Source: Nocardioides cavernae
Lineage (GTDB): Bacteria; Actinomycetota; Actinomycetes; Propionibacteriales; Nocardioidaceae
Assembly: GCF_016907475.1 (NCBI RefSeq)
Contig: NZ_JAFBCA010000001.1
Span: forward strand, 1,550,001-1,614,000
Direction: 5' to 3'
Length of the DNA stretch: 64,000 bases
Every line of letters begins with the position of its first letter. The first letter of the stretch is position 1. The notes beneath the pieces are model-generated. The model worked only from the letters and a program-made list of their open reading frames with translations, did no database searches and was not told where the DNA came from. Positions 36,074 to 63,053 of this stretch are shown in pieces. The translations under genes and the position numbers were made by a program.

Positions 36074-36087
36074 GAGGACGGAAGCAC

Positions 36088-38865: not shown

Positions 38866-39995
38866 CCAGGGTGCTGCTGGTCTCGCACGAGGCCTCACTC
38901 ACAGGTGCCCCGCGTATCGCGGCACTCGTCGGTCGAGTCCTCGTCGGCCGAGGGTGCCAGGTTCACATCCTTCTACAAAGACCTGGTCCCCTGAGCGGCG
39001 CGTTCGCCGAGGTCGCACCCACCCGGGTCATGCCGTTCTGGCGCGTCTTGCGGTGGTTGTGGGCCCACCCCGGTGTCCTCCGGTCCCGCGCTGCCGCCCT
39101 TTTCGAGCTCCTGACTGCTGTGGTCATCGTCGCGCTGCGACGTCCCGACCTGGTCTACGTGAACTCGAGCTCGGCAGCTGCTTTCGTGCGTGCCGCGCGG
39201 CTCCTCGGCCGCCGCTCGGTGCTGCATGTCCACGAGTCCGGGCCTGTGCTGAGCCACTTCCTCGCGCGAGTCGGCATCGAGGACCTGACACAGATGGGCG
39301 TTCGACTCGTCGCGTGCTCGCCGAGCGTGGCGGACGATCTCGCACTGCGGGGGACGCCACCCGATGACATCGTGCTCATCCCGTCCATTCCTGACGCTGA
39401 TCGCGTGTTGGCGGGTGCGAGAGCCAGCACGTCGGACGCATCGAAGGCCATCGTCGTCGGCTGCTGTGGTGCCGTCGAACGCCGAAAAGGGGTTGATCTC
39501 TGGCTGGCTGCGGCAGAGGAGCTGGTCCGGGCGCTACCTCCGGGACGAGTGCGCTTCGTCTGGGTGGGCGCTGGAGAACCTCCCCGAGAGGCAGCGACCT
39601 GGCCCTGGGTGACGTTCACCGGGCCGATGGACGATCCATCGAGCGCGATGGCCGACTTCGACATCATGACGTTGCCCTCGCGGGACGACCCGTTCCCGCT
39701 GGTGGTGATGGAGGCGATGCTCCTCGGCAAGCCGGTCGTTGCGTTCGACGTCGGAGGGGTGGCGCACCAGCTCGGTGACACGGGACTCGTGGTCGAGGCG
39801 GGCGATGTCTCTTCGTTCGCCCAGCAGCTGCGGCGACTCGTCGACGACGAGGCGCTACGGGTACGGCTCGGGGAGCTGGCCGCGGCCCGTGCGCGATCGC
39901 TCTTCTCCTGGGAGAAGTTCGAGGCAGGAGTCACTGTCATGCTCGAGGACGCGCCACCCCGGCCGGTCAACGCGAGCGGACCGACTCCTGAGTGA
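38862..39995 (+). CDS. GT4 glycosyltransferase
   Basis: 377 aa. GT-B enzyme with RVLLVSHEASLTGAPRIAAL at the N-terminus, HVHESGPVLSHF, and GCCGAVERRKGVDLWLAAAEEL plus the donor-site TLPSRDDPFPLVVMEAMLLGKPVVA near the C-terminal domain. Retaining sugar transfer from nucleotide sugars. GTG 38862 overlaps the flippase-GT stop. Its last 29 bases overlap the stop region of the convergent wzy-like gene. Somewhat lower GC than its neighbours. Confidence 0.87.
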   Translation: MTRVLLVSHEASLTGAPRIAALVGRVLVGRGCQVHILLQRPGPLSGAFAEVAPTRVMPFWRVLRWLWAHPGVLRSRAAALFELLTAVVIVALRRPDLVYVNSSSAAAFVRAARLLGRRSVLHVHESGPVLSHFLARVGIEDLTQMGVRLVACSPSVADDLALRGTPPDDIVLIPSIPDADRVLAGARASTSDASKAIVVGCCGAVERRKGVDLWLAAAEELVRALPPGRVRFVWVGAGEPPREAATWPWVTFTGPMDDPSSAMADFDIMTLPSRDDPFPLVVMEAMLLGKPVVAFDVGGVAHQLGDTGLVVEAGDVSSFAQQLRRLVDDEALRVRLGELAAARARSLFSWEKFEAGVTVMLEDAPPRPVNASGPTPE

Positions 39996-41280
39996 TGCGT
40001 TGCATCGCGCCGGCGAGGCCGATGAAGAGGAAGAGGCACCCCGCCGTCTGGGGGAAGGCGAACGCGTCGAAGAACGCCAACCCGAACCCGCCGGCCGCGA
40101 CGGAGGCGAGCACGGCCTGGGCGTACTGCGCGTGCTCCTCGCGGCCGCCCTCGAGCTGGAGGGTCCTGCGGGCCGTCCGGGCGCTGACCAGGCCGCACAC
40201 GATGAGCGCGAGGAGCGACACGAGGCCGAGGAGACCGGCCTCGATCGTCATGCCGAGGTAGGCATTGTCGAGGATCCAGTACTTCGGCAGGAACGTGCCG
40301 AATCCCTTCCCGACGAGGGGGGACTCGGCGATGAACGCGCCGGCGATGTCGTAGCTGCCGGTCCGCGAGGAAATGCTCGGGTCCTGGTCGGCGTTGGAGA
40401 ACAAACCCTGGATCGCACCGAGCAATCCCGGGACGGTGACGTACAGGACCGTGCTGACGACAGCCAGGAAACCCAGCGCACGGAGCCGCTGCTGCAGGTT
40501 CCAGGACAGGGCGAGCACGATCGCACCCGCCAGCGCGCAGATGTAGGCCGAGCGTGACATGGAGAAGAAGATCGAGGCGATCATCGCGACCAGCATCGCG
40601 CGGAACAGCCACCGGAAGCGTGACTGCACGGAGGCGCACACCGTGACGAGGGGGAGGGCCATCCCGAGCACGACGCCGTACTCGATCGGGCTCATCGACG
40701 TCCCGCTCGGCCGGATGCGACCGGAGCGCGTGCCGAGCGTCCACCCCTCGGTCCCTGCGGTGAGACCGGGGATCCGGATGCGGTCGACGAAGAGCTCACC
40801 CGTGACGTACTGCGCCAGGCCGAGCAGGGCGACCAGTCCCGCGGCGAACGCCAGCCTGCGGAGGACGACCACGAGTCGGTCGAAGTCGCTGATCCCGTCA
40901 CAGGCGAGCAGCACGACCCCGGCCAGGCTGATCAGCCGCAGCAGGCCCGAGTCGGCCGTGCTGATCTCGTCGCCGGGCAGCGGTCCGGCCATGGCGTGGG
41001 CGTAGGCCACCAGCAACACCAGGACCATGCCGAGCATCGCCGCCCGGACGGTCCGGGCGCGTCCGTCGGATGGCTCCGAGCGACGGACCGTGTGCCACGC
41101 CCAGTAGAGGAAGACGCCGATGCCGAACAGGGTGGCGGGGCTGCCGGCGCTCCCCAGGGCGCTGACGACCATCGGGGAGGGGATGAACCACAGCAGGCAG
41201 ACGTAGACGGTCACGAGCGCGGCGGCGTCGATCCCGCCGCTGCGGGCGACGCCGATGCGCTCCGGGGCCGCGAGCGTCAC
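39967..41280 (-). CDS. O-antigen ligase/polymerase-like membrane protein (Wzy-like)
   Basis: 437 aa with about 10-12 hydrophobic segments (VTVYVCLLWFIPSPMVVSAL, LFRAMLVAMIASIFFSMSRS, GLLGLVSLLALIVCGLVSA) and a large extracytoplasmic loop typical of the Wzy_C/O-Antigen_lig superfamily, including SGTSMSPIEYGVVLG and GKGFGTFLPKYW. Polymerises repeat units on undecaprenyl diphosphate outside the membrane. GTG 41280 overlaps the Wzz-like stop; overlaps 29 nt with the convergent GT4 3' end. Last gene of the minus-strand operon from 45168. Confidence 0.8.
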   Translation of the reverse strand: MTLAAPERIGVARSGGIDAAALVTVYVCLLWFIPSPMVVSALGSAGSPATLFGIGVFLYWAWHTVRRSEPSDGRARTVRAAMLGMVLVLLVAYAHAMAGPLPGDEISTADSGLLRLISLAGVVLLACDGISDFDRLVVVLRRLAFAAGLVALLGLAQYVTGELFVDRIRIPGLTAGTEGWTLGTRSGRIRPSGTSMSPIEYGVVLGMALPLVTVCASVQSRFRWLFRAMLVAMIASIFFSMSRSAYICALAGAIVLALSWNLQQRLRALGFLAVVSTVLYVTVPGLLGAIQGLFSNADQDPSISSRTGSYDIAGAFIAESPLVGKGFGTFLPKYWILDNAYLGMTIEAGLLGLVSLLALIVCGLVSARTARRTLQLEGGREEHAQYAQAVLASVAAGGFGLAFFDAFAFPQTAGCLFLFIGLAGAMQRITQESVRSR

Positions 41281-42080
41281 GATGCCTCGCCGCGCTGGTC
41301 ACGCCTCCCGCGCCGCTTGAGCAGGCGTGCTGTCACCTCGACCTGGGCGGCGCGGTCGGGGTCGCGTCCGTCAGGGGCTGGCGCGTCCACGTGGACGGGG
41401 TGCAGCGAGACAGGGGCCGACGCCCCGGCGTCGTCATCGGCGACCGTGTCCTCCGGGCTGGGACTGCGTCGGCCGGTGAGCCATCCGTCGACGAGGGCGA
41501 TCAGGAGCAGGCCCAGCCCGCCAAGGCCCGCCATGGTCATCAGCGCCGACCGGATCATCGCCTTTTTCGTGGTCGCGGGCACCTCGTCACGGGTGAGCAC
41601 CACCGACGTCACCTGCTCGCCGGCCGGGAGGTCCAGCTCGCTCTGCATCTTCTCCAGCTCCACCGGGACGCGGTCGGTGAGCGTCTTCAGGGCTTCGATG
41701 GCCACGTCGGGTGCGGGTGCCTCCACCGTGAACACGATGATCGGCGCGCTGTTGGTGAAGTCGGGCGTGATCTCGAACGTCGTACCGGTGGGGTAGGTCT
41801 CGCCGAAGGTGTCCGCGATCTTCTTGGACGTCAACGCCCGCACCACCACGTCGCGGGCCTGGCTGACCCCACCCAGGACGAGGTAGGGGTTCGCCTGCGT
41901 CATCGCTCCCGTCGGGTCCTGGGCCTGGGCGGGCGGGAAGACCAGGACGGTGGCCGTCGCCTCGTAGGTCTCTCCTGTGCGCTGCGCGACGAGGAGCGTC
42001 GCCCCGAGGGTCAGCACCGCCAGGGCGAGGACGAGGTACCAGCGGCGGCGCAACGATCGCCACACGACCCGCATCTCCAT
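41277..42080 (-). CDS. Wzz/YveK-like chain-length determinant
   Basis: 267 aa. Membrane helices near both ends of the periplasmic region (YLVLALAVLTLGATLLVA ~15-32; MTMAGLGGLGLLLIALVDG ~180-198) and a soluble segment between. A basic/acidic cytoplasmic tail follows; there is no Walker ATPase or tyrosine cluster, so it is a Wzz without a fused BY-kinase. Sets polymer length with the Wzy-like neighbour. Good SD (GGGAGAG) before ATG 42080. Confidence 0.72.
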   Translation of the reverse strand: MEMRVVWRSLRRRWYLVLALAVLTLGATLLVAQRTGETYEATATVLVFPPAQAQDPTGAMTQANPYLVLGGVSQARDVVVRALTSKKIADTFGETYPTGTTFEITPDFTNSAPIIVFTVEAPAPDVAIEALKTLTDRVPVELEKMQSELDLPAGEQVTSVVLTRDEVPATTKKAMIRSALMTMAGLGGLGLLLIALVDGWLTGRRSPSPEDTVADDDAGASAPVSLHPVHVDAPAPDGRDPDRAAQVEVTARLLKRRGRRDQRGEAS

Positions 42081-42101: not shown

Positions 42102-42380
42102 TCAGCCGCCGGTGCGGCGGTCGTCGATGAAGTCGGTCAGGGTGCCCACGCTCTCGAACACCTCGCCGGTGAAGTCCTCGTCCTCGATGACGATGTCGAA
42201 GCGGTCCTCGAGGGCGGCCGCCAGCTCGACCACCCCGAGCGAGTCGAGCTCCGGGAGCTCGCCGAAGAGCCGCGTGCCACGGTTGATCGACTCCGCGCGG
42301 TCCTCGATGCCGAGGGTGCGGGTGAGCACCTCGACCACTCCGGGGAGCGTGTCGGCGAGCGTGTGTGCAGGCTGGGTCAT
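42102..42380 (-). CDS. acyl carrier protein (first of two)
   Basis: 92 aa. DSL motif with phosphopantetheine-accepting Ser47 (ELPELDSLGVVELAAALE). Four-helix ACP pattern and acidic. Sits between a Wzz-like gene and a PLP decarboxylase whose stop it overlaps, with an AMP-forming ligase upstream. This trio (carrier, ligase, decarboxylase) resembles BtrI/BtrJ/BtrK. Needs modification by a PPTase such as the AcpS at 51412. Confidence 0.9.
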   Translation of the reverse strand: MTQPAHTLADTLPGVVEVLTRTLGIEDRAESINRGTRLFGELPELDSLGVVELAAALEDRFDIVIEDEDFTGEVFESVGTLTDFIDDRRTGG

Positions 42381-43603
42381 ACGAGGACCTCCGAAGGTGA
42401 GGGGTGGCCGAGGAACGCGGTGGGGCTGGCCGTGAGGCCGTAGGCGCCGGCCTGGAAGACGACGACGAGGTCGCCGACCTCCGTGCCGGGCAGGTCGACC
42501 TCGTCGCCGAGCAGGTCGAGCGGCGTGCACAGGCAGCCGACCACCGTGACGGGTCCGGTGGGCTCGTCGAGGGCTCGGGTGGCGAGGGCCAGCGGGTAGT
42601 TGCGCCGGATGACCTGGCCGAAGTTGCCGGAGGCGGCCAGCTGGTGGTGCATTCCGCCGTCGACGACGGCGTAGCTGCGCCCGCGCGACTCCTTCACGTC
42701 GACGACGCGGGTCACGTAGACGCCCGCCTCGCCCACGAGGAACCGGCCGAGCTCCATGACGACGGTGGCGTCCGGCAGCGCCGGCGCGAGCCGCCCGTCG
42801 ACGAGCTCGGACAGCCGTCGACCGACGGCGTCGAGGTCGAGGCGCTCGTCCTTCTCGAAGTAGGGGATGCCGAAGCCGCCGCCAAGGTTGACGTACTCCA
42901 CGGTGCCGGGCACGTGCTCCGCGAGCTCGAGGACGAGCTCGACGGTGCGCTCCTGCGCCTCGCCGAGGATCGCAGCGCTGAGGTTTTGCGACCCCGCGAA
43001 GACGTGGTAGCCGACGACGTCGACGTCGTGGTCGCTCACCTCGCCGAGCAGGGAGGGGACGGCCTCGGCGTCGACCCCGAACTGCTGGGGGCCACCGCCC
43101 ATCCGCATGCCCGAGCCCTTGACGGCGAACGGCGGGTTGACGCGTACGGCGGCGCGCGGGCGCAGGGCGAGCTCCTTGCCGGTGCGCACGAGGCGCTGCA
43201 GCTCGGTGCGCGACTCGACCTCGATCGTGACGCCCGAGGCCACGGCCCGTCGCAGCTCGGCGTCGGTCTTGCCGGGCCCGGCGAAGCTGATCGCGCTCGG
43301 GGCCTGTCCGGTGTCGAGCGCCACGGCGAGCTCGCCGGCGGAGGCGACGTCGAGGTGGTCGACCAGGCCCGCGAGGTGCTGGACGACGGCCGGCATCGGG
43401 TTCGCCTTGACCGCGTAGCCGAGCGACACCCGCTCGGGGAGCGCGGCCTTCACGGCGGCGACGCGCTCGGTGATCATCGCGCGGTCGTAGGCGAAGAACG
43501 GCGTCGATCCGACCCGTTCGGCCAGGCGGTCGACCGGCATCCCGCCGACCAGGAGCGTGCCGTCGACGGTGCCGTGCGCCGTCACGTGGTCGGAAGTCCT
43601 CAT
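42377..43603 (-). CDS. PLP-dependent decarboxylase (fold type III)
   Basis: 408 aa. Alanine-racemase/DAPDC-like: Lys66 in YAVKANP binds PLP, HVFAGSQNL and GGGFGIPY bind phosphate, and the C-terminal CLCTPLDLL gives the catalytic cysteine. It closely follows the exosortase-associated decarboxylase subfamily found with an AMP ligase and ACP. Probably decarboxylates an ACP-bound or free amino acid. Overlaps the ACP start by 4 nt and the ligase stop by 4 nt. Confidence 0.88.
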   Translation of the reverse strand: MRTSDHVTAHGTVDGTLLVGGMPVDRLAERVGSTPFFAYDRAMITERVAAVKAALPERVSLGYAVKANPMPAVVQHLAGLVDHLDVASAGELAVALDTGQAPSAISFAGPGKTDAELRRAVASGVTIEVESRTELQRLVRTGKELALRPRAAVRVNPPFAVKGSGMRMGGGPQQFGVDAEAVPSLLGEVSDHDVDVVGYHVFAGSQNLSAAILGEAQERTVELVLELAEHVPGTVEYVNLGGGFGIPYFEKDERLDLDAVGRRLSELVDGRLAPALPDATVVMELGRFLVGEAGVYVTRVVDVKESRGRSYAVVDGGMHHQLAASGNFGQVIRRNYPLALATRALDEPTGPVTVVGCLCTPLDLLGDEVDLPGTEVGDLVVVFQAGAYGLTASPTAFLGHPSPSEVLV

Positions 43604-45168
43604 GCGGTCAGCTCCTCGCGCAGCAGCACCCGGTCGAACTTCCCGTTGGGCGAGCGAGGGAGCTCGGTGCGTACGACGATCTCCGCCGGCACCATGTAGC
43701 GGGGCAGCTGCCGGCGGAAGACCGCGAGCAGCGCGTCAGGCTCGAACCCCTCGACCGCGGGGCTGACGACGACCACGACCCGGTGCCCGAGGGCCTCGTC
43801 CGGGAGGCCGAGCGCGGCCGCGTCGCGGACCAGGCCGCTGTCGTAGGCGACCTCCTCGATCTCGGTCGGGCTCACCCGGTAGCCGGAGGTCTTGATCATG
43901 TCGTCGGTGCGGCCGACGAAGTAGAGGAAGCCGTCCTCGTCGGTGACGACGCGATCGCCGGACCACACGGCCAGCTCGGGCGCGCGCCAGTCGGGGCCAC
44001 CCGGGATGGGGCGGAACCGCTCGGCGGTGCGGGCGGCGTCGCCCCAGTAGCCCTGGGCAACGAGCGCTCCGCGGTGGACCAGCTCGCCCTCCTCGCCGGG
44101 CCCGCACGGCGTGCCGTCGGGCTGCAGGACGAGGATCTCGGCGTCCGGGATGGCCTTGCCGATGGAGTCGGGGCGGCGGTCGACCTCGGACGGGTCGAGG
44201 TAGGTCGAGCGGAACGCCTCGGTGAGGCCGTACATCAGGAACGGGCTGGCCTGCGGGAAGATCTCGCGCAGCCGGGTGAGGGTCGACCGGGGCATCCGGC
44301 CGCCCGTGTTGGCGAAGTAGCGCAGCGAGGCGGTGGCCTCCGCAGGCCAGTCGGCGGAGGCGAGCTGGATCCACAGCGGAGGGACGCAGGTGAGGCCGGT
44401 GACGCCGTGGCGCGCGCAGAGGCGTACGACGTCGCGAGCCAGGAGGTAGTTGACGAGCACGACGTGGGCGCCCGCGGCGAACGCAGTCGTGACCTGGCTC
44501 AGCCCGGCGTCGAAGCTCAACGGGAGCGCGGCCAGGATGACGTCGTCGCCGTCGTTGCCGAGGTAGGTCGAGACGCTCTCGGCGCCCACCAGCAGGTTGC
44601 GGTGCGACAGCACGACGCCCTTGGGGCGGCCGGTGCTGCCGGACGTGTAGAGGATCGCGGCGGTGTCGGCGTCGATCGCCCGGCTCGCGGACGGCGGGTC
44701 GACCACGTCGTCCAGGAGGGCGGACAGGGCGTGCACGCGCACCTCGTCCTCGTCGGGGACGGCGCCCGGATCGGCGTCGACGAGCAGCACGTGTGCGAGC
44801 TCGCGGCAGCCCTTGGCGTCCTCGCGCACCGACTCCCAGCGCTGGTGCGTCGTGATGAGCACCCGCACGTCGCAGTCGCCGAGGATGTAGGCCACCTGGG
44901 AGCCCTTGAGTGCCGGGTTGACCGGCACGAACACGCCACCTGCGACGGAGGCGCCGAAGATCCCCCCGACGGTCTCGGGTCGCTTGTCGAGGTAGATCGC
45001 CACGCGTTCCCCACGCGCGACGCCGAGGTCCGACAGGACGGCGCCCGTGCGGGACGCCAGGTCCCAGGCGGAGGTGTAGTCGAGCGTGACCTCCTGGTGG
45101 CTCAGGGCCGGACGGTCGCCGAACCGGACGGCGCCCTCCTCGAGCAGGTGGTGAAGCTGCGTCCGCAT
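43600..45168 (-). CDS. AMP-forming acyl/aminoacyl-CoA-type ligase
   Basis: 522 aa of the ANL superfamily. ATP loop ILYTSGSTGRPKGVVLSH (~170-187), YGLTEAFRSTYL, GDRVVTDEDGFLYFVGRTDDM and the C-terminal catalytic lysine in SPNGKFDR. It resembles the exosortase A-associated acyl-CoA ligases and, by context, may load an amino or carboxylic acid onto the ACP at 42102. GAGGGGG 10 nt before ATG 45168. First gene of the minus operon to 39967; promoter box at 45305. Confidence 0.88.
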   Translation of the reverse strand: MRTQLHHLLEEGAVRFGDRPALSHQEVTLDYTSAWDLASRTGAVLSDLGVARGERVAIYLDKRPETVGGIFGASVAGGVFVPVNPALKGSQVAYILGDCDVRVLITTHQRWESVREDAKGCRELAHVLLVDADPGAVPDEDEVRVHALSALLDDVVDPPSASRAIDADTAAILYTSGSTGRPKGVVLSHRNLLVGAESVSTYLGNDGDDVILAALPLSFDAGLSQVTTAFAAGAHVVLVNYLLARDVVRLCARHGVTGLTCVPPLWIQLASADWPAEATASLRYFANTGGRMPRSTLTRLREIFPQASPFLMYGLTEAFRSTYLDPSEVDRRPDSIGKAIPDAEILVLQPDGTPCGPGEEGELVHRGALVAQGYWGDAARTAERFRPIPGGPDWRAPELAVWSGDRVVTDEDGFLYFVGRTDDMIKTSGYRVSPTEIEEVAYDSGLVRDAAALGLPDEALGHRVVVVVSPAVEGFEPDALLAVFRRQLPRYMVPAEIVVRTELPRSPNGKFDRVLLREELTA

Positions 45169-45257
45169 CAGGTCAGTGCCCCCTCGTTCTGTGGCCGGAG
45201 CCGCCCCCCGGCGACCGGCTGCGGGGCGACGAATACCCACTCGTCGTCCCACGGACC

Positions 45258-45316
45258 ACGCTACGGACGCGCGGCCTCGGCGCGGACCGCTCCGGGGCGG
45301 AGTACCGGATTTGGGG
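45258..45316 (-). promoter_or_regulatory. AT-centred box plus -10 of the ligase operon, inside the upstream gene's 3' end
   Basis: Minus-strand box CCCC-AAAT-CCGG (45316-45305) and -10 TAGCGT (45263-45258). Box centre near -59 to predicted +1 ~45251. The box lies in the last codons of the upstream glycosyltransferase. Confidence 0.45.
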
Positions 45317-46256
45317 TAGCGAGGTCGAGCCACGCGGGACCGCGAGGGGCGCGCAGCAGGCCGGGTCGGACGAGCACCCGTACGGCGGCCCGGGCGATCG
45401 CGTCGCCCCGGGCGGCGCGGCTCGACTCGCGCAGGACCAGCGCAAGCCAGTAGAGCGCCGTCCGCGGCCGGGACGCCAGCCGCGAGAAGAGCCGCAGGCG
45501 GTTGGCGGTGAGGAGCGCCCACAACCGTGGCGACGTGCCGGAGTCGCCCTCGAGGTGGACGGCGCCAGCGCCGGCCACGTAGCGCACGCCGAAGCCGTGT
45601 GTCCCGGACCGGAGGTGGAACTCGGTCTCCTCGGAGTAGAGGAAGTAGGACTCGTCCCAGGGCCCGCATGCGTCCAGGCAGGCGCGGCTGACCAGCTGCG
45701 TGGACCCCTCGGCCCAGTCGGGCGACGCGTCACTCGTGTAGCGCTCCGGATCACTCACCACCTCGCCCGTGAGCGGCCACCGGCCGGCGAGGGTGGCGCC
45801 GACGAAGGCGTCGGCGAAGGCCCGCAGCAGCGTCGGCCGCCGGCGCATCGAGTGGATGAGCGCCCCGTCGCCGTCGGTGAGCCGCGGCACCACGATCCCG
45901 ATGCCGGGCAGGTCGAGCGCCGCCACCAGCGTGGGCAGGCAACCCGGCTGGAGGCGCACGTCGGGGTTGAGGACGAGCACCGCCGGTGAGTCCGGGGCGA
46001 CGGCGACAGCGGCGTTGACGCCTGCCGCGTAGCCGGCGTTGCGTCCCGTCTGCACGACCGTGGCCTCGGGGCACAGGCGCTGCACCACCGCGACGGTGTC
46101 GTCCGTCGAGTCGTTGTCCACCACGACGAGGCGCCAGGGCACGTCACCGGCGCCCTCGGGCAGTGACTCCACCAGGCCGGGAAGCACGTCGGCGCTGTTG
46201 AAGGTCACCACCGCGATCGTCACCGGGTTCTCCGGGGTGCTCGTGGGGGTGCTCAT
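45261..46256 (-). CDS. rhamnosyl-type family 2 glycosyltransferase
   Basis: 331 aa. GT-A: TIAVVTFNSADVLPGLVESL (~13-32), VVVDNDSTDD (DDS-like), GYAAGVNAAV, and the metal-binding VLVLNPDVRL (~98); later GWAEGS/DWAEGS and DESYFLYSEETEFHLRS. Pattern of rhamnosyltransferase-like GT2 enzymes of O-antigen clusters. ATG 46256 has GGAGG 7 nt upstream and overlaps the Wzz-like stop. Last gene of the operon from 51207. Confidence 0.87.
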   Translation of the reverse strand: MSTPTSTPENPVTIAVVTFNSADVLPGLVESLPEGAGDVPWRLVVVDNDSTDDTVAVVQRLCPEATVVQTGRNAGYAAGVNAAVAVAPDSPAVLVLNPDVRLQPGCLPTLVAALDLPGIGIVVPRLTDGDGALIHSMRRRPTLLRAFADAFVGATLAGRWPLTGEVVSDPERYTSDASPDWAEGSTQLVSRACLDACGPWDESYFLYSEETEFHLRSGTHGFGVRYVAGAGAVHLEGDSGTSPRLWALLTANRLRLFSRLASRPRTALYWLALVLRESSRAARGDAIARAAVRVLVRPGLLRAPRGPAWLDLATPNPVLRPGAVRAEAARP

Positions 46257-46966
46257 GCCATCGCCTCCGCCGACCGGGCACGCCGACGCACCAGGGGCCG
46301 CCTCGCGGGCGCAGCCGCCGTGGCGCCAGCGGGGCGGCGGCGCGGGCGCCAGCGCTCCAGCCAGAACACCACGACCGCGGTGAGCGCGATGCCCGTGAGG
46401 CCGGTCGCGCCGAGCGCGCGGGACCTGCTGCCCGCCATGGGGTAGACGACCGGGTCCGCCGAGGAGGGGACCGCGTGGACCCGGAGCCGCGGGTGCACCG
46501 CTCTCTCGTCCTGACGTTCGGCCAGCACCTGCTCCACCAGCTGCACCGTCTCGCGGGCAGCGTCCTGCACCGTCTGCGCGTCGGGACCGGCCACCTGCAC
46601 GTCGAGGTGGTGTGCGGGGAAGGCCGGCCGCCACTGCGTGCCGAGGTTGGGCACCCGCACCTGGACCCCGTCACGCTGCCCCATCCCGACGATCGTGGCG
46701 ACGACGTCACCCGTCAGGAGGGGGCCGTGACCGGCGTTGATGTCGTTGGCCACCACACCGGCCATTGGCTGCAGTCCGTACAGCGGATTGTCCAGCAGGT
46801 TCCCGTTCCGCACCCCCTGAGGCCCGACGAGCACGATGTTGTACTGCGTGAAGAACACCGGCGCCTGGCGCTGCACCACCGCGAATGCCCCGACCGTGAG
46901 CACGGCGCCGAGCACCACGACGTACCAGCGTCGCAGGGCGGCAGCGAGGAAGTCGCGTGCGGTCAT
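46253..46966 (-). CDS. second Wzz/YveK-like protein
   Basis: 237 aa. N-terminal membrane helix (YVVVLGAVLTVGAFAVVQ, ~15-32), a periplasmic domain, and a second helix (ATGLTGIALTAVVVFWLERW, ~185-204) followed by a very basic C-terminus. No kinase domain. A second chain-length-like protein in the same locus as 41277-42080; they may form a hetero-oligomer or serve two polymers. Followed by GT2 with 4-nt overlap. Confidence 0.65.
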   Translation of the reverse strand: MTARDFLAAALRRWYVVVLGAVLTVGAFAVVQRQAPVFFTQYNIVLVGPQGVRNGNLLDNPLYGLQPMAGVVANDINAGHGPLLTGDVVATIVGMGQRDGVQVRVPNLGTQWRPAFPAHHLDVQVAGPDAQTVQDAARETVQLVEQVLAERQDERAVHPRLRVHAVPSSADPVVYPMAGSRSRALGATGLTGIALTAVVVFWLERWRPRRRPAGATAAAPARRPLVRRRARSAEAMA

Positions 46967-47003
46967 GTCGCCCGGCTGGTGGTGCGGTCGTCCATCGGGT
47001 GGA

Positions 47004-48014
47004 TCATCCGATCTCCTGCACGGGCTCGACCAGCTGCGGCGGCAGGTGCAGGTACGCGGTCGTCTTGCGCTTCTGGTCGATGTCGCCGTAGACGCGCTCG
47101 ACCTGGGCGGTCGTGAGGCCGGTGGACTCGGCGACCTGCTCGATCGGGCGGCCCGTGTTCTTGCCGTGCAGGCAGAGGTCCATCAGGTTCCACGGCAGGG
47201 AGAAGTAGAACTCCTCCTGCGACTGCGGCAGCGAGTAGGTGTCGGTGGTCGACGGCCGCGTCCGGACCTGCTCGGGGACGCCGAGGAAGTCCGCGAGCGC
47301 GTAGACCTGGGTCTTGTAGAGGTGGGCGATCGGCTTCACGTCGGCCGCCCCGTCGCCGAGCTTCACGAAGAAGCCCTGGTCGTACTCCAGGCGGTTGGGC
47401 GTGCCGGTGACGACGTAGTTGAGCCGGTCGGCGTGGTAGTACTCCGTCATCCGGCGGGCCCGCTGCTTGAAGTTCGTCGCCGCCACGATGCCGAGGTAGG
47501 ACTCGGTCGTCAGCCGGTGGCGGGTCGTGGTGCCGTCGGGCGCCTGCACGACCACGGAGTAGAGGCGCAGGCTCTCGGACTCCACGACGCTCGGCAGCAC
47601 GATCTTGGACTTGTGGTCAGGACCGTAGTCGGGGCACACCATCCGGATCGCGTCGTCGCGGCGTTCGTAGCAGCGGACCGCCTCGAGCACGGGGGTGATG
47701 TCCTCCACGACCGAGTCGATGCCGAGCGAGTCGGAGACGAGCGTGCTGAATGCGAGCGTGTCCTCGGAGGAGTCCCGCTCGGGCATGTGCAGGCCGAAGA
47801 CCCGGTCCTTGCCGATCGCGGCGACGCACAGTGCGGCGACCACGCTGGAGTCGATGCCACCGGACAGGGCGACGATCGCCCCCTTGCGGCGGGCGCGGGT
47901 GAGGTAGCCGCGCAGCGAGGCGCTGATCCGTGCGACCTCCGCCTCGACGTCGATCGCGAGCACGTCGGTGTCGCCCTGGCTGTCGATCTGGCTGTCGCTC
48001 CGGACGGTGGTCAT
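47004..48014 (-). CDS. nadE: NadE-like (glutaminase-free) ATP-dependent amidoligase
   Basis: 336 aa. PP-loop SGGIDSS (~51), TNFKQRARRM, YVVTGTPNRLEYDQGFFVKLGDG and LYKTQVYALADFLGVP match NH3-dependent NAD+ synthetases. There is an insertion of about 50 residues after the PP-loop half (~105-165) and no glutaminase domain, whereas actinobacteria normally use a long glutamine-dependent NadE. Being flanked by AsnB, an ACP and a polysaccharide gene, it is probably recruited to amidate a carrier-bound or sugar carboxylate. True NAD synthase activity remains possible. Overlaps asnB by 4 nt. Confidence 0.75.
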   Translation of the reverse strand: MTTVRSDSQIDSQGDTDVLAIDVEAEVARISASLRGYLTRARRKGAIVALSGGIDSSVVAALCVAAIGKDRVFGLHMPERDSSEDTLAFSTLVSDSLGIDSVVEDITPVLEAVRCYERRDDAIRMVCPDYGPDHKSKIVLPSVVESESLRLYSVVVQAPDGTTTRHRLTTESYLGIVAATNFKQRARRMTEYYHADRLNYVVTGTPNRLEYDQGFFVKLGDGAADVKPIAHLYKTQVYALADFLGVPEQVRTRPSTTDTYSLPQSQEEFYFSLPWNLMDLCLHGKNTGRPIEQVAESTGLTTAQVERVYGDIDQKRKTTAYLHLPPQLVEPVQEIG

Positions 48015-50002
48015 GCGCTGCTCCTCACGTGCTGGACCCGGTCGATGACGGTCATCGGCTCGGGTGGTGCGTCGTCGCTCGCCGACCCCGCGTCGACGAC
48101 GAGCTGCTGGTGGAGCAGCTGGGTCGAGACGACCGCGAGCAGGCGCATGTTGTCGGTGTTCCCCGCCCGTACGCCGCCGGTGCGGGCGGCCTTGGCGATC
48201 AGGCCGGCAACCGGCCGCGGGGCGAAGACCCCCGCCGCGGCGAGGGCCGCGGGCGAGGTGACCTCGGTCAGCCACTCCGGCGGCGGGCCGCTGAAGAAGC
48301 TGGCGGTGTCGGGGGAGCGGTAGGGCTGCTTGGGCCTGCGGCGGATCTGCTCGGGGACGAGGTCCTCGAAGGCGATCTTGAGCAGGTGCTTCTCGTCGAG
48401 CCCGCACAGCTTGTGGCGCGCCGGGAGCCGGTTGGCGAGCTCGACGACCTCCTTGTCGAGGAACGGGAAGCGTCCCTCCACCGAGTTGGCCATCAGCATC
48501 CGGTCGCCCTGGCTGGACAGGATGTAGCCCGGCAGGAGCGTGGTCATCTCCAACCACTGGGCGCGTGAGAGCGGGTCCCAGCCGTCGCTGCCGGCCGGCA
48601 TCCGCGACACCACGTCGGGGCCGCGGTCGAGCTCGGCCCGGAGGTCGGGGGTCAGCAGCGCCTTGACCGCACTGGTGGAGGCCCACCGCGGACGATGGGA
48701 GATGGCGGGGTCGTCGGCGTCGAGGTCCTGGCCGAAGAAGCTGCGCGCGAAGGCCGGGGCGGTGCCGGGACTGCGCGCCATCCACGGGTAGAGCAGCTCG
48801 ACCGCGCGGTCGCGGGTGGCCGAGCCGGGGTCGCGGGCCCAGAAGGCGCGCACCCGGCCCTCCCGGAAGATGTCGTAGCCACCGAGCACCTCGTCGGCGC
48901 CCTCACCCGTCACCACGACCTTGTAGCCGTTGTCCCGCACCAGCCGCGACAGCAGGAACAGCGGCGCGGGCGCGGTGCGAAGCACGGGAGTCTCGGTGTG
49001 CCGCACCACGTCGGGGAAGACGTCGGCGACGTCGGCGGGGGAGACGGTGATCTCCTCGTGCTGGGCGCCGAGCTCGGCCACCATCTTCTGCTGGTGGACC
49101 CCTTCGTCGTACTCCGCGTCGGTGAACCTCAACGAGAAGGTGTGCAGCGGCGCCTCGGTGTACCTCGCGATCACCGCGGCCGTGATCGAGGAGTCGATGC
49201 CTCCGGAGAGGTAGGCGCCGACGGGTACGTCGCTGCGCACGAAGCGGAGCCGTGCCGCCTCGACGAGGCGCTCGCGCAGCTCGGCGGCATTGGCCTCGAT
49301 GTCCTGCCCCGGCTCGGCGTCCCGGTCGGGGAAGTCGATGCTCCAGTAGGGGTGGCGCCGGAAGCCGTCGCGGTCCAGCACCGCGACGTGGCCGGGCTCG
49401 AGCTGCTCGATGCCGGCGAACACCGTGCGGGGGGCCACCGTCGACCAGTAGGTCAGCACCTCGTCGAGCCCGATGGGGTCGAAGGCACGCGGCAGGGCCG
49501 GATCGGCCATCAGCGCCTTGACCTCGGAGGCGAAGGCGATCCTCTGCCGGTCACGGGTGAAGAAGAGCGGGCGCACGCCGAGGCGGTCGCGCGAGAGCAC
49601 GAGCCGGTGCTCGCGCGAGTCCCACAGGGCCAGGGCCCACTGCCCGTTGAAGCGGGTGAAGCACTGCTCGCCCCACTCCTCCCAGGCGTGCACGACGACC
49701 TCGGTGTCGCTCGCGGTGCGGAAGCGGTGGCCGCAGCGGCGCAGCTCCTCACCCAGCTCGACGTAGTTGAAGATCTCGCCGTTGAACGAGATCCACAGGG
49801 TCTCGTCCTCGTTGCACAGCGGCTGCGCACCGCCCTCGGTGTCGATGATCGCCAGCCGCGTGTGCCCGAGCGCGGCGTGCTCGTCGCGGTAGAGGCCGCT
49901 TCCGTCCGGACCTCGGTGGCGCAGCCGCCCGATCATCCGGGTCACGAGCTCCCGGTCCGGCGGTGGGCCGTCGAGGGCGACGACGCCGCAGATGCCGCAC
50001 AT
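48011..50002 (-). CDS. asnB: AsnB-type glutamine amidotransferase
   Basis: 663 aa. Catalytic Cys2 (MCGICGVV), class II glutaminase domain (~1-210: RHRGPDGSG, GHTRLAIID, FNGEIFNY) and C-terminal PP-loop synthetase (GAYLSGGIDSS ~258, TGEGADEVLGGYD). Either makes Asn, or, as in exosortase/polysaccharide-associated AsnB paralogues, amidates a carboxyl of a sugar or carrier-bound acid. Starts 1 nt overlapping the stop of the acyltransferase (TGATG) and is followed by nadE-like. Context favours the modification role. Confidence 0.85.
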   Translation of the reverse strand: MCGICGVVALDGPPPDRELVTRMIGRLRHRGPDGSGLYRDEHAALGHTRLAIIDTEGGAQPLCNEDETLWISFNGEIFNYVELGEELRRCGHRFRTASDTEVVVHAWEEWGEQCFTRFNGQWALALWDSREHRLVLSRDRLGVRPLFFTRDRQRIAFASEVKALMADPALPRAFDPIGLDEVLTYWSTVAPRTVFAGIEQLEPGHVAVLDRDGFRRHPYWSIDFPDRDAEPGQDIEANAAELRERLVEAARLRFVRSDVPVGAYLSGGIDSSITAAVIARYTEAPLHTFSLRFTDAEYDEGVHQQKMVAELGAQHEEITVSPADVADVFPDVVRHTETPVLRTAPAPLFLLSRLVRDNGYKVVVTGEGADEVLGGYDIFREGRVRAFWARDPGSATRDRAVELLYPWMARSPGTAPAFARSFFGQDLDADDPAISHRPRWASTSAVKALLTPDLRAELDRGPDVVSRMPAGSDGWDPLSRAQWLEMTTLLPGYILSSQGDRMLMANSVEGRFPFLDKEVVELANRLPARHKLCGLDEKHLLKIAFEDLVPEQIRRRPKQPYRSPDTASFFSGPPPEWLTEVTSPAALAAAGVFAPRPVAGLIAKAARTGGVRAGNTDNMRLLAVVSTQLLHQQLVVDAGSASDDAPPEPMTVIDRVQHVRSSA

Positions 50003-50913
50003 CAGGCCGACCCGCCGGCCCGGGCGAGCACCGCGCGCATGCCCTCGGCGGTGCCGAGGAGGTCGGGGTCGATCTGCTCCTCGCGGAGCACGACGTGGAA
50101 GACGTCCTCCAGGAAGATCGCCGCCTTCACCGCCTCGAGGTGCCGGTCCCCGGACGGGTCGCGCAGGCGCGCGTACTCGGCCAGCGCACGGTCCACGTGA
50201 GCGGGATCTGGCCCCTGGGCCTGAGCCTGCTCCGCCGCGGGCGCGGGCGCGGGCTCCGGCTCGGGAGCTGCGGCCGTCGGGGCCGGCGCCCGGCGTACGC
50301 GGTAGTTGAGCATCGCGGAGTTGTCGTAGTCGGAGGCGATGACGCGACCCGGGTTGCCGGCGACCAGCGCCCGTGCGGGTACGTCGCGCGAGACGACGCT
50401 GCCGGCGGAGATCGTGGCCCCGTCGCCGATCGTCACGTCGCCGGTGATCGTCGCGCCGGGACCGATCCACACGTCGTTGCCCAGACGGGGGACACCCTGG
50501 TTGCCCGAGGCGACCCGCTGACCGATCGTCACGTTGTGGTGCAGCACGCAGTTGTCACCGATGACCGCCGGCCCGATGAACACGCCGGTGTGGTGCATCA
50601 GGAGCAGGCCGGGGCCGATCTGCGCACGGGGGTCGATGTCGGCGTGGTGGATGTTCATCACCCGCCGGTGCCAGAAAGCGGCGAAGACCCGCGCCGGCAG
50701 ACCCTTGATCCGGTGCTCGGCGTGGTACTGCCGGGTGGCACGGTCGAAGCGGTAGCTCGCGACCACCCGGAAGTCGGCGTTCCACATCCACAGCCGCAGA
50801 CGCTGCGACGGGCCGCGGCGGCCCTCCGAAACGATCGTGTAGTACTTGTCGACGTCCGTGCGGAACGGACGGACGTCCGGGTCCTCGTCGACCCGGTCGT
50901 GGACTTCCCCCAT
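50002..50913 (-). CDS. serine acetyltransferase-like hexapeptide acyltransferase with C-terminal pseudo-ACP
   Basis: 303 aa. Residues ~60-200: left-handed beta-helix of the CysE type (VMNIHHADIDPRAQIGPG, LLMHHTGVFIG, VTIGQRVASGNQGVP, VVSRDVPARALVAGNPGRVI). After an Ala/Pro/Glu linker (~210-240) a ~60-residue C-terminal domain aligns with ACP helices II-III (GDRHLEAVKAAIFLEDVFHV), but the attachment Ser is replaced by His. It could dock the ligase, PPTase or ACP. GGAGAG SD before ATG 50913. Immediately downstream of the second ACP gene. Confidence 0.8.
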   Translation of the reverse strand: MGEVHDRVDEDPDVRPFRTDVDKYYTIVSEGRRGPSQRLRLWMWNADFRVVASYRFDRATRQYHAEHRIKGLPARVFAAFWHRRVMNIHHADIDPRAQIGPGLLLMHHTGVFIGPAVIGDNCVLHHNVTIGQRVASGNQGVPRLGNDVWIGPGATITGDVTIGDGATISAGSVVSRDVPARALVAGNPGRVIASDYDNSAMLNYRVRRAPAPTAAAPEPEPAPAPAAEQAQAQGPDPAHVDRALAEYARLRDPSGDRHLEAVKAAIFLEDVFHVVLREEQIDPDLLGTAEGMRAVLARAGGSA

Positions 50914-50937
50914 GAGTGCTCTCCGAAGCTGTAGGCC

Positions 50938-51207
50938 TCAGCCCACGGTCTGTTCGGCGAGGGTCTTGGACGCGACGAACCTCGTGAGGCCGCCCACGCT
51001 CCCGAGGTTCTCGAAGACCGTCTCGGACTCGCCGACGACGATCCCGAAGTGGTCCTCGAGGAACTCGATCAGCTCGAGGACGCCCGTGGAGTCCACGATG
51101 CCCTCCTCGAGCAGGGACGCCTCGTCGTCGGGCAACCTGTCGTGGTCGCCGAAGAGGTAGTTGTCGCCGATGAACTCTCGGAGCTCGTTCCTGATCTGGT
51201 CGTGCAC
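50938..51207 (-). CDS. acyl carrier protein (second)
   Basis: 89 aa. DST motif with Ser40 (EEGIVDSTGVLELIEFLE) as the phosphopantetheine site; acidic four-helix pattern. GTG 51207 has GGAGG 5 nt upstream and is preferred over GTG 51240, which gives extra non-family residues. First gene of the operon ACP, SAT-ACP, AsnB, NadE-like, Wzz, GT2. Divergent from acpS. Confidence 0.9.
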   Translation of the reverse strand: MHDQIRNELREFIGDNYLFGDHDRLPDDEASLLEEGIVDSTGVLELIEFLEDHFGIVVGESETVFENLGSVGGLTRFVASKTLAEQTVG

Positions 51208-51305
51208 GTTCGCCTCCCCTGGCAGTGTCCGGGCCTCCACCCCAGTCGGCCCGTCACCCAGTGGAGCAGGGGCGGGGAGGGGCGGAGGCGAGTGGCGGGC
51301 ACACT

Positions 51306-51364
51306 CCCCAATAGTGGTGAGGGTGGTGGCGACGCCTCGCCCGCCCGGGTGACGTGCCTAGTGT
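51306..51364 (+). promoter_or_regulatory. AT-centred box between ACP and acpS genes, with acpS -10
   Basis: Box CCCC-AATAGT-GG (51306-51317) sits midway between the divergent starts (94 nt to acpS, 98 nt to the ACP gene). TAGTGT at 51359-51364 is the acpS -10; box centre near -60. No clear -10 was seen for the ACP side. Confidence 0.45.
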
Positions 51365-51411
51365 CGGAGCCGTGGCCGCCGCGGGGGACGGCCGGACCGA
51401 GGAGTCGTGAC

Positions 51412-51822
51412 ATGGGCGGCAGCACCCAGGTGGGGGGCACGGTCGGCACGGGCACCGACATCGTGTCGGTGGCCCGCATCGCCGCGCTCTACCGGAGCGC
51501 CGGCGACCGGTTCCTGCGGCGCTGGTTCACCGACGACGAGATCGACTACTGCACCTCGCGGGCACGTCCGGAGCTGCACCTCGCGGCCCGGATGGCGGCC
51601 AAGGAAGCGGTCCTGAAGGCGTTGCGCCCCGCCGGCGACGCCCCCCTGGCCTGGCGCTCGATCGAGATCGGCCGCGACGCCGATGGCGCGCCCAGCGTGC
51701 GCCTCGGCGGAGACGTCCGCGTGCTCGCCGCGAGACGGGGAGCCGGGTCGATCCACGTGTCGCTGTCCCACTGCGACGAGTACGCCGTCGCAGTGGCGGT
51801 CGCGGACGCCGCCGCGGGCTGA
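51412..51822 (+). CDS. acpS: holo-ACP synthase (phosphopantetheinyl transferase)
   Basis: 136 aa. AcpS-type: GTDIVSVARI with metal ligand Asp16 and RMAAKEAVLKAL with Glu65; SLSHCDEYAVAVAVA near the end is the last family block. Transfers phosphopantetheine from CoA to ACP serines. Adjacent to the ACP gene and in the polysaccharide locus, so it likely activates the locus ACPs, and perhaps the fatty-acid ACP too. GAGGAG SD before ATG 51412; a monocistronic unit. Confidence 0.92.
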   Translation: MGGSTQVGGTVGTGTDIVSVARIAALYRSAGDRFLRRWFTDDEIDYCTSRARPELHLAARMAAKEAVLKALRPAGDAPLAWRSIEIGRDADGAPSVRLGGDVRVLAARRGAGSIHVSLSHCDEYAVAVAVADAAAG

Positions 51823-52997: not shown

Positions 52998-53056
52998 CCC
53001 CACGGCGCGAGTCGACCACGGGCCGCCGGCGCCCTCCGGAGCGTGCGCCGCGACAT

Positions 53057-54216: not shown

Positions 54217-54876
54217 TCAGCGCAGGCGCTTGACCGTGCCGACGAGCGCGCCGCGGGCGCGTGAGGTGACCGGGGGCCGGCGGAGGACGTCGCGCTCCAC
54301 GGAGTCGACGGTGTCGCCGCAGCGGATGCTGAAGCGGGGCTGGAGCCAGCGGTCGGTGTGGGCCCAGCGGCGGTCGCTGGTCTGCACGGTGCGGTAGCCG
54401 AGCGGTCGCAGCTCGTGCAGGACGGCACGGTCGTAACGGCCGAGCGGCAGCGCGGCGTCCTGGACCCGGCTGCCGGTAACGTCCTGCAGCACGGTGCGCG
54501 CGGTGACGAACTCCTCCCGGCGGCGGGCCGGGTCGAGCCCGCGCCAGGGCCGGTGCGACATGCCGTGGTTGCCGATCGTCATGCCGGCGTCGTGCAGCTC
54601 GCGTACGTCGTCGCGGCTGAGGCTGCCCGGACGGTCCAGGCGCCCGGCGACGACGAAGAAGCTCGCGAGCAGGCCGCGCTCGCGGAGTGCCGGCAGCGCG
54701 ATCTCCACGTCCGAGGAGTTGCCGTCGTCGAAGCTGAGGCGCACGTCGGTCCGCCCGACGACCGTGTCGAGCACGCCGAGGAAGACGTCCCGGCTGATCC
54801 AGTAGGAGTCCTCGCCGGGCTCGCGTCGGCGCTGCGGCGCGCCGATGCCATGGAAGCAGACATTCACCACGCGCAT
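54217..54876 (-). CDS. polysaccharide deacetylase (CE4/NodB-like)
   Basis: 219 aa. Motif 1 LSFDDGNSSD and motif 2 IGNHGMSHRPW supply the metal-binding Asp/His/His; motif-3-like RYDRAVLHELR. Removes N-acetyl groups from hexosamine polymers such as the product of this locus or peptidoglycan. ATG 54876 is 7 nt after TACGGT (54889-54884) with no SD: leaderless. It shares a symmetric promoter region with the acyltransferase gene at 54997. Confidence 0.85.
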   Translation of the reverse strand: MRVVNVCFHGIGAPQRRREPGEDSYWISRDVFLGVLDTVVGRTDVRLSFDDGNSSDVEIALPALRERGLLASFFVVAGRLDRPGSLSRDDVRELHDAGMTIGNHGMSHRPWRGLDPARRREEFVTARTVLQDVTGSRVQDAALPLGRYDRAVLHELRPLGYRTVQTSDRRWAHTDRWLQPRFSIRCGDTVDSVERDVLRRPPVTSRARGALVGTVKRLR

Positions 54877-54883
54877 GGGTCGA

Positions 54884-62959: not shown

Positions 62960-63011
62960 CAACCCCCCTCCGGGACACCGCCCAAGGCGCCCCGTTGCTG
63001 ACCTTGCAGCG

Positions 63012-63053
63012 AGCCTAGGAACGCCCACCGGGTGGGGCATGCCGCAAATGAGC
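63012..63053 (-). promoter_or_regulatory. AT-centred box plus -10 of the priming transferase gene
   Basis: Plus-strand CCGC-AAATG-AGC (63042-63053) and minus-strand -10 TAGGCT (63017-63012): centre near -42. Shares AAATGRGCGAAAGCC with the 23507 site. The rest of the 387-bp gap 62960-63346 shows only the terminator at 63247. Confidence 0.5.

Follow-up and report, generated by a model that had tools for sequence, protein, structure and literature searches.

What are two acyl carrier proteins (ACPs), an AMP-forming ligase and a PLP decarboxylase doing among the genes of a bacterial surface polysaccharide? The question is raised by a stretch of 64,000 nucleotides of Nocardioides cavernae (the window), for which a preliminary description had listed these proteins together with AsnB, a NadE-like protein, a hexapeptide transferase and AcpS among Wzz, Wzy and glycosyltransferase (GT) genes. 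All of them are found. Their setting is a Nocardioides-type exopolysaccharide locus, the genes are real, and they group into two cassettes, A and B, as follows:

42102..42380, minus strand: ACP1, the cassette A carrier, with a DSL motif (PF00550, 30.5 bits)
42377..43603, minus strand: DEC, a fold-III PLP decarboxylase, BtrK-like (TIGR03099, 563.9 bits)
43600..45168, minus strand: LIG, an AMP-forming ligase with a VinN-like pocket, D220/T288/R320 (TIGR03098, 726 bits)
54997..55866, plus strand: GNAT, an acyltransferase of tandem-GNAT N-acyltransferase fold, the transfer enzyme proposed for cassette A
54217..54879, minus strand: PDA, a polysaccharide deacetylase (PF01522, 80 bits; SFDDG and NHxxxH motifs kept)
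50938..51207, minus strand: ACP2, the cassette B carrier (PF00550, at cut-off)
50002..50913, minus strand: hexapeptide (serine-acetyltransferase-like) acyltransferase
48011..50002, minus strand: AsnB-type glutamine-dependent amidotransferase (TIGR01536, 502 bits; Cys2 and SGGIDSS kept)
47004..48014, minus strand: NadE-like amide ligase of the PRK00876 subfamily (501 bits, cut-off 313)
51412..51822, plus strand: AcpS-type phosphopantetheinyl transferase (the genome has two ACPS matches, this one included)
45261..46256, minus strand: GT2 glycosyltransferase within the co-directional run (PF00535)
46253..46966, minus strand: second Wzz-like protein, with no family match
41277..42080, minus strand: Wzz chain-length protein (PF02706)
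39967..41280, minus strand: Wzy/O-antigen-ligase-like polymerase (PF04932)
36070..38865, plus strand: flippase fused to a GT4-like domain (PF13440, 205 bits)
25006..30200, plus strand: amino-sugar synthesis set (Gfo/Idh, LegB-like dehydratase, PseC/LegC-like DegT, NeuD/PglD acetyltransferase, second DegT)
61367..63040, minus strand: initiating exopolysaccharide sugar-phosphate transferase (TIGR03025, 327.7 bits, cut-off 295.55)

Eleven minus-strand genes, from 51207 to 39967, form one co-directional run in which 4-base overlaps join ligase to decarboxylase, decarboxylase to ACP1, AsnB to NadE, the Wzz-like gene to GT2 and Wzz to Wzy, while the hexapeptide and AsnB genes have one base in common. 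GNAT and PDA stand apart from LIG, at a distance of 10 kb and on separate transcripts. Within the amino-sugar set, an NCBIfam cut-off was exceeded by the NeuD model only.

Judged from sequence, cassette A, whose core consists of LIG, DEC, ACP1, GNAT and PDA, would seem on balance to make an omega-aminoacyl group and to attach it to an amino sugar of the polymer. LIG belongs to TIGR03098 (726 bits, curated cut-off 592.35) and DEC to TIGR03099 (563.9 bits, curated cut-off 478.45), scores which are more than chance and which bear out an earlier suggested parallel to the exosortase-associated ligase and decarboxylase families. The fold of LIG is AMP-binding (PF00501), and its best single-domain PDB relative is 3wvn/3wv4, listed as VinN in the excerpted text of PMC11253843. 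By the alignment from which the LIG pocket is deduced, VinN D230/S299/R331 correspond to LIG D220/T288/R320, Thr288 being a different residue from Ser299 that keeps the hydroxyl. This D-[T/S]-R pocket is present in 80/80 named LIG loci, which are the best 80 of 575 candidates, so that frequencies among them describe close relatives only; none of the control ligase rows has it (0/14, from 13 loci). VinN F231 and K330 are not kept, the aligned residues being A221 and F319, and given these the substrate of LIG may exceed Asp in size or differ from it in kind. At locus L103 a more distant second ligase (37%) also reads D-S-R, hence the pocket is not confined to cassette A.

The vicenistatin set VinN/VinL/VinO and the AFC-BC11 set AfcQ/AfcK/AfcP likewise comprise an AMP-forming enzyme, a stand-alone carrier and a PLP decarboxylase, and the Asp and Arg of the VinN/AfcQ-type pocket are kept in LIG. 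According to excerpts on the two systems, carrier loading precedes decarboxylation both in the former (PMC11284099) and in the latter, where Asp becomes beta-Ala (PMC12186527). Their products are a macrolactam starter or a lipopeptide, whereas the trio of the window stands amid GNAT, deacetylase and polysaccharide genes.

As to DEC, its best PDB match and nearest solved relative is BtrK (240.8 bits; next 157.7), and both BtrK-type features, the PLP lysine and the CTPxD motif, are present. Among the 76 named loci with a DEC match, the motif is CTPLD in 73 and CTPND in 1, two alignments being incomplete, that is, one or the other in all 74 that are readable; the PLP lysine, Lys66, is kept in 75/75 readable loci. 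A LysA identity for DEC was rejected (249.6 bits, where the LysA model requires 297.9); the true LysA of the genome (440 bits, with the motif CEAGD where DEC has CTPxD) lies elsewhere, at G000:C1:3933163. BtrK acts, with BtrI and BtrJ, in the butirosin pathway, which employs an aminoacyl carrier and whose product, an aminoglycoside, ends on an aminosugar, whereas a polymer is proposed for the window. The BtrJ/BtrK/BtrI parallel drawn in the preliminary description stands for BtrK but not for BtrJ, an ATP-grasp enzyme and therefore the wrong model for LIG, which is AMP-binding (PF00501) and, among single-domain solved proteins, nearest to VinN. Its broader idea, carrier-bound amino-acid chemistry on behalf of the polysaccharide, is supported by the TIGR03098 and TIGR03099 scores and by the BtrK relationship.

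Cassette A is recurrent. Across 65 full-length LIG neighbourhoods, DEC is found in 63, ACP1 in 61, GNAT in 52 and PDA in 44, each of the four being found in 0/12 control neighbourhoods; the two loci devoid of DEC are L060 and L099. GNAT and PDA, which had escaped the preliminary description, thus belong to the conserved core: they occur in 52/60 and 44/60, respectively, of the full-length actinobacterial and rhizobial LIG loci, and Wzy lies near LIG in 30 of the 47 full-length actinobacterial ones. Homologues of GNAT and PDA were found in none of the five full-length exosortase-type LIG loci, for which reason the transfer step may differ there. A GNAT-like match (33%) was seen at L105, an exosortase-type locus that is not full-length. 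The carrier Ser of ACP1 is kept in 74/74 aligned homologues (86 LIG loci, duplicates included), and the DS motif is kept in both ACP1 and ACP2; the best NCBIfam model for ACP1 is AmcB (55 bits, below the cut-off of 80). The GNAT chain carries two GNAT-like domains, which makes it a tandem GNAT, and is weakly recognised by Pfam (PF00583 in 6/49 members, PF13527 in 5/49).

From these genes and motifs we would infer the reactions with their substrate and acceptor, and the transfer by GNAT, as follows. LIG would act on an acidic amino acid, Asp or Glu being the likeliest, and adenylate it at the side-chain carboxylate while Arg320 and Thr288 hold the alpha-carboxylate and Asp220 holds the amine; it would then load the residue on holo-ACP1. 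DEC would then remove the alpha-carboxylate on the carrier, leaving beta-alanyl- or 4-aminobutyryl-ACP1 (GABA thioester), and the tandem GNAT would pass the omega-aminoacyl group to an amino-sugar amine, which would either come directly from the amino-sugar genes at 25-30 kb or be uncovered by PDA; the polymer would be exported by the Wzx/Wzy machinery. Along the same line, D-alanylation of teichoic acids by the Dlt system uses an adenylation enzyme and a small carrier to equip a cell-surface polymer with an amino acid; there, transfer proceeds via a membrane MBOAT protein and without a decarboxylase, whereas the window has DEC and a proposed GNAT transfer.

TIGR03098 and TIGR03099 are described as an exosortase A system-associated pair, and yet LIG and DEC exceed their curated cut-offs in a genome without a match to the exosortase model PF09721. 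An exosortase above cut-off was found in 8 of the 30 genomes tested and in none of the 22 actinobacterial or rhizobial ones, the present genome included, which makes the label 'exosortase-associated' misleading.

Cassette B, i.e. ACP2, the hexapeptide transferase, AsnB, the NadE-like protein and usually AcpS, would be an optional carrier line beside the first, one that probably turns a carboxylate, bound to a carrier or to a sugar, into an amide. It occurs in 5/80 named LIG loci (best 80 of 575 candidates), so that, of the eight-family co-occurrence on which the preliminary description had staked its reading, the core trio recurs but the full unit with NadE, AsnB, ACP2 and hexapeptide transferase does not. 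ACP2 scores 20.8 bits against PF00550 (cut-off 20.8) and was not among the matches of the own-genome PF00550 search. AsnB exceeds the cut-off of TIGR01536 (502 bits) and, with 420.5 bits for a cut-off of 816.9, falls outside TIGR03108, the XrtA amidotransferase; the NadE-like protein belongs to the NAD(+) synthase family PRK00876 (501 bits, cut-off 313), its best PDB match being the NH3-dependent NAD synthetase 2e18. The pseudo-ACP once ascribed to the hexapeptide protein is not supported: Pfam detects no PP-binding domain, and the C-terminal tail, present only in the three Nocardioides copies and absent from the three other orthologues, is without the carrier serine.

Nor is the combination of AsnB, NadE and an ACP peculiar to this locus, for rhizobial megaplasmids carry related asnB-ACP-ligase-nadE operons, without a decarboxylase nearby; an Azospirillum version lies inside a polysaccharide locus. 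The operon on pSymB of Sinorhizobium meliloti, probably SMb20650/SMb20651, shares 49% (AsnB), 44% (ACP) and 60% (NadE) identity with cassette B, and adjoins minCDE, outside any polysaccharide locus. Unlike it, cassette B of the window, in the order ACP2, hexapeptide, AsnB, NadE, has the hexapeptide transferase and AcpS and is without a dedicated ligase beside ACP and nadE. As in the window, AsnB-type genes lie within exopolysaccharide clusters of the floc-forming Zoogloea, Aquincola and Rubrivivax, where they are asparagine synthetase genes; in the excerpted texts (PMC9012009, PMC3684757), decarboxylase, ligase and acyl carrier protein have 0 mentions each.

Could the two cassettes form one pathway, in keeping with the single module of the preliminary description, with LIG charging both carriers and with AsnB/NadE amidating, and DEC decarboxylating, successive intermediates? 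This is unlikely, even if they share a single 11-gene co-directional run and LIG is the sole ligase of its kind in the window and, within the stretch examined around each, in 4/5 of the named loci that have cassettes A and B together, whereas each of the five cassette B loci examined outside the LIG set has its own ligase. Some AsnB-like protein is also near LIG in 22/80 named loci (best 80 of 575), against 1/12 (a 28% match) for AsnB and 0/12 for the divergent AsnB family in control neighbourhoods, and an AsnB relative (29-32%) lies 5-30 kb from cassette A in four genus mates. Nevertheless, NadE occurs in only 5/80 named LIG loci (best 80 of 575), and the 20-kb neighbourhoods of the six other same-genus genomes contain no NadE, ACP2, hexapeptide or AcpS, nor AsnB at the same cut-off. 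It is very improbable that AsnB and NadE serve ordinary asparagine and NAD synthesis and are located here by accident: AsnB is indeed the only Asn_synthase match in the genome, and the NadE-like protein keeps the NAD-synthetase signature GTPNRxE..GDGxxD, but Asn_synthase is no general need, since 6 of 14 genus mates are without a match and only 4 of the other 8 have a strong one, a second NAD_synthase match (83 bits) exists elsewhere in the genome, and AsnB, NadE and ACP occur together in at least six genera.

LIG and DEC might instead work towards a secreted small molecule or a lipid, in the manner of macrolactam or butirosin pathways, their polysaccharide setting being incidental. The nearest solved relatives, BtrK and VinN (PMC11284099, in excerpt), belong to antibiotic pathways, and no GNAT or PDA homologue was found at LIG loci L060, L089, L091, L101 and L106; the frequencies of GNAT, PDA and Wzy given above nonetheless render such a role improbable. 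A small chance is likewise left to DEC acting on a free amino acid (diaminopimelate, ornithine, lysine-like), with LIG then loading the resulting amine or an unrelated acid: the LysA model still gives DEC 249.6 bits, but this is below its cut-off, the true LysA is elsewhere, and the motif is that of BtrK, not that of the genome's LysA. Moreover, by the docked AfcQ model (PMC12186527, in excerpt), Arg320 would imply a free alpha-carboxylate during LIG action.

To return to the preferred reading, in which an omega-aminoacyl group is made on ACP1 and attached to the polymer, a wider version of it is advanced tentatively: a widespread exosortase-independent cassette, moved between Actinobacteria and Rhizobiales, might decorate exopolysaccharides with carrier-made beta-alanine or GABA via the tandem GNAT, and AsnB/NadE-type amide ligases on a second carrier might be an alternative or additional line, amidating where cassette A decarboxylates, and the cell would in this way set its polymer's charge. 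The curated status of TIGR03098 and TIGR03099 is that of hypothetical equivalogs, whose names give an enzyme class but no substrate, and the pathway could explain their role; residues, neighbours and taxonomic spread give both families a concrete, cheaply testable reaction and weaken the link to protein sorting. If true, soil actinobacteria, rhizobia and sludge-type bacteria would have exopolysaccharides bearing beta-alanyl or GABA groups, which would alter charge, ion binding and flocculation, and carrier chemistry of the antibiotic type would be employed on surface polymers.

The window's genome is a single contig of 4.85 Mb and, judged by the relatives of its AMP-forming ligase (LIG), stands near Nocardioides (91% identity to the ligase from an uncultured Nocardioides). 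The preliminary description had read eight gene families between 42102 and 51822 as one carrier-protein module; the genes that it named were found at their positions, and its pseudo-ACP on the hexapeptide protein was not borne out by a Pfam domain search and a motif check. Eleven genes form a run in which six junctions overlap by 1-4 bases each, with AcpS divergent to it, and a flippase, glycosyltransferases and an initiating sugar transferase in the surroundings. The features are as follows:

51207 to 39967, minus strand: in order, acyl carrier protein ACP2, hexapeptide transferase, AsnB, NadE-like protein, Wzz-like protein, GT2, LIG, PLP decarboxylase (DEC), acyl carrier protein ACP1, Wzz and Wzy
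25-30 kb: amino-sugar set of Gfo/Idh, LegB-like dehydratase, two DegT aminotransferases and a NeuD/PglD acetyltransferase
27257-27352: tRNA predicted by ARAGORN within a DegT gene, with an anticodon of four bases, probably false
31292-36073: protein of 1593 aa that combines an N,N-dimethylformamidase-like domain with four DUF4082 and a number of Ig-like domains; 16 of 86 LIG loci, duplicates included, have relatives of it
53045-54109 and 56604-58103: a pair of secreted-looking proteins, similar to each other in their C-terminal parts; one has DUF4082, and relatives of that one occur in 26 of 86 LIG loci, duplicates included

A tblastn comparison of 22 window genes with 86 LIG neighbourhoods separated two cassettes: cassette A, comprising LIG, DEC, ACP1, a tandem GNAT and a polysaccharide deacetylase (PDA), and cassette B, comprising ACP2, the hexapeptide transferase, AsnB, the NadE-like protein and usually AcpS. 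The set of 80 named loci comprises the best of at least 575 tblastn-confirmed candidates drawn with the patterns LTCVPPLW and P[FY]LMYGLT; of L025-L030, which come from genus mates, at least three apparently duplicate L033, L051 and L062, so that duplicates enter the counts over 86 loci but not the counts over 80 or 65. Among the 65 full-length named neighbourhoods, DEC, ACP1, GNAT and PDA occur in 46, 46, 39 and 31 of the 47 actinobacterial ones and each in 13 of 13 from Rhizobiales; in the five of exosortase type, a group assigned from taxon labels and the PF09721 result, they number 4, 2, 0 and 0. None of the four was found in 12 control neighbourhoods of other acyl-CoA ligases from the same family (of 13 control loci, all but L022, whose contig has 6 kb, were extended to 20 kb). 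Of the 52 loci with GNAT, 36 have it directly upstream of LIG and in the same direction; the distance between the two in the window is 10 kb. Several Rhizobiales loci (L045, L048, L054 and others) show a compact cassette, GNAT-LIG-DEC-ACP-GT2-PDA. LIG orthologues with no GNAT or PDA homologues nearby by tblastn occur in Actinacidiphila, Amycolatopsis, Streptantibioticus and Streptomyces (L089, L091, L101, L106), possibly antibiotic-type clusters with the same ligase.

Among the 80 named loci only five have NadE (L031, L032, L063, L064, L088); each of these also carries the hexapeptide protein, AsnB and ACP2, and four of them carry AcpS. On these counts the single module of eight families was rejected, while its core of ligase, decarboxylase and ACP does recur together. 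Of 296 class genomes, 2, the window's own included, gave a NadE match with an E value of at most 1e-60; the NadE protein search gave 8000 scored candidates, 120 of them listed, without gene context. A second NAD_synthase match elsewhere in the window's genome may be the housekeeping enzyme. The DEC family exceeds its cut-off in 13 of the 296 class genomes and is therefore not general. The TIGR03098 cut-off was passed in at least 7 of 149 family genomes, a lower bound because at most nine first-look candidates were scored per genome; genome G082 has DEC above its cut-off in the class-wide scan but no ligase over the TIGR03098 cut-off in the family one.

LIG scores 726 bits against TIGR03098 (cut-off 592). 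The top rows of the PDB search belong to multi-domain peptide synthetases, whose scores are sums; the best among the single-domain chains are 3wvn and 3wv4, which head the list when only the pocket-bearing part is searched and are listed in the available text of PMC11253843 as VinN, the side-chain-activating adenylation enzyme of vicenistatin. According to the same excerpt, D230 of VinN is the amine ligand, F231 and S299 face a shortened loop, and K330/R331 lie on that loop. VinN D230/F231/S299/K330/R331 align to D220/A221/T288/F319/R320 of LIG, the loop being ungapped. The D-[T/S]-R triad, whose three residues all lie outside the search patterns, is present in 80 of 80 named loci (the best 80 of at least 575), as DATFR in 74 and DYSFR in 6; the full triad occurs in none of 14 control ligase rows (13 loci, L012-L024), L012 having the Arg alone. 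Three further, distant ligases lie within LIG loci: that of L103 has D-S-R, and those of L064 and L101 lack the triad. In the part of PMC12186527 consulted, AfcQ of AFC-BC11, a VinN-type enzyme, accepts L-Asp, and from a docked model the same Arg is argued to orient the side-chain carboxylate for activation. The butirosin ligase BtrJ was rejected as a model for LIG, which has the AMP-binding fold.

DEC reaches 564 bits against TIGR03099 (cut-off 478), and its best PDB relative is the butirosin decarboxylase BtrK (240.8 bits, the next 157.7). Its C-terminal motif, in the 76 named loci with a DEC match, reads CTPLD in 73 and CTPND in one, two partial alignments being unread; BtrK has CTPED. That DEC is a copy of LysA was rejected, as it falls below the LysA cut-off and the genome has a separate LysA with CEAGD. 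FemAB-like chains, expected for GNAT, were not among the matches listed, which excludes nothing.

In the proposed mechanism, LIG would load an amino acid on ACP1 through its side chain, DEC would carry out alpha-decarboxylation on ACP1, and GNAT would transfer the group to an amino-sugar amine. In our judgement, which is not a calculation, Asp, giving a beta-alanyl group after the VinN/AfcQ precedent, has roughly an even chance of being the substrate; Glu, giving GABA, is a tentative second choice after BtrK and the smaller A221, and some other substrate is unlikely. AfcQ makes oligo-beta-alanine by iteration, as stated in the accessible portion of PMC12186527, and iteration is possible in cassette A as well. 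The pieces are not new, and parallels to the chemistry have been published; in the open-licence literature searched, neither the use of this chemistry on a polysaccharide, nor a function for the TIGR03098/TIGR03099 pair, nor the combination of polysaccharide, beta-alanine or GABA, and carrier was found.

Cassette B probably forms an amide. The order asnB-ACP-ligase-nadE occurs in S. meliloti RCAM1115, Mesorhizobium ciceri, a Roseateles-labelled plasmid and Shinella, with no DEC-type decarboxylase annotated in the stretches read around these four operons. The S. meliloti proteins are 49% (AsnB), 44% (ACP2) and 60% (NadE) identical to those of the window. Directly before asnB, the Roseateles-labelled (L116, 3140-4216) and Shinella (L117, 3099-4208) loci encode a protein of 358-369 aa; that of Shinella has no NCBIfam match at 1e-10. 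Azospirillum ramasamyi has GT4-GT4-deacetylase-ACP-ligase-asnB-nadE-GNAT; blastp at E 0.01 finds no match between its GNAT and that of the window, and only a weak one (28% over 87 residues) between its deacetylase and PDA, hence a likeness of kind rather than close descent. The ligase pocket letters are D-Y-T-K-R in Sinorhizobium and Mesorhizobium and G-Y-A-[C/T]-R in the other three; a pocket Asp kept throughout cassette B ligases was accordingly rejected (three of five lack it), and from these letters their substrate probably differs. The S. meliloti operon is probably SMb20650/SMb20651 of pSymB, judged by the replicon and the adjacent ACP-ligase pair. SMb20650 is reported to acylate SMb20651, the carrier transcribed together with it, in E. 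coli and not to take the place of FadD (PMC7232532, seen in part); the acylation could point to a fatty acid as substrate instead of Asp.

That AsnB serves general housekeeping was rejected on the distribution of Asn_synthase in genus mates. A divergent family related to CarA/AsnB, with an LTGGxDSR motif and barely recognised by Pfam (13 of 16 members match PF00733 at E 0.1 or better), occurs at L030, L034, L037, L046, L049, L051, L053, L056, L062, L063, L067, L072, L075, L078, L090 and L096. Fifteen of the 80 named loci contain it, in most cases adjoining ACP1, against 0 of 12 controls; combined with AsnB matches the count is 22 of 80, AsnB alone occurring in 1 of 12 controls. Asparagine synthetase genes are known from exopolysaccharide clusters of floc formers (PMC9012009, PMC3684757, in the passages seen), and neither a decarboxylase nor an acyl carrier protein is mentioned in the portions available of PMC3684757, PMC9012009 and PMC9850573.

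Dependence of the window locus on an exosortase was rejected, there being no PF09721 match over the cut-off in its own genome. PF09721 exceeded the cut-off in 8 of 30 genomes, all proteobacterial outside Rhizobiales by taxon label, two of them with partial matches only (34-36 bits), but in no actinobacterial or rhizobial genome among the 22 tested, the window's own included, where one sub-threshold match was seen (L057).

In a tree of 34 hand-chosen ligases, in which long control branches were flagged, all 20 cassette A rows form one group (support 100/99) and the five cassette B ligases of rhizobial/Azospirillum type a separate one (99/96); the second ligase of the cassette B locus L064 falls outside both. 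Three rhizobial rows are nested within a set of 15 otherwise actinobacterial ligases (100/100, the inner forks being weaker), which suggests a probable transfer across phyla, between Actinobacteria and Rhizobiales.
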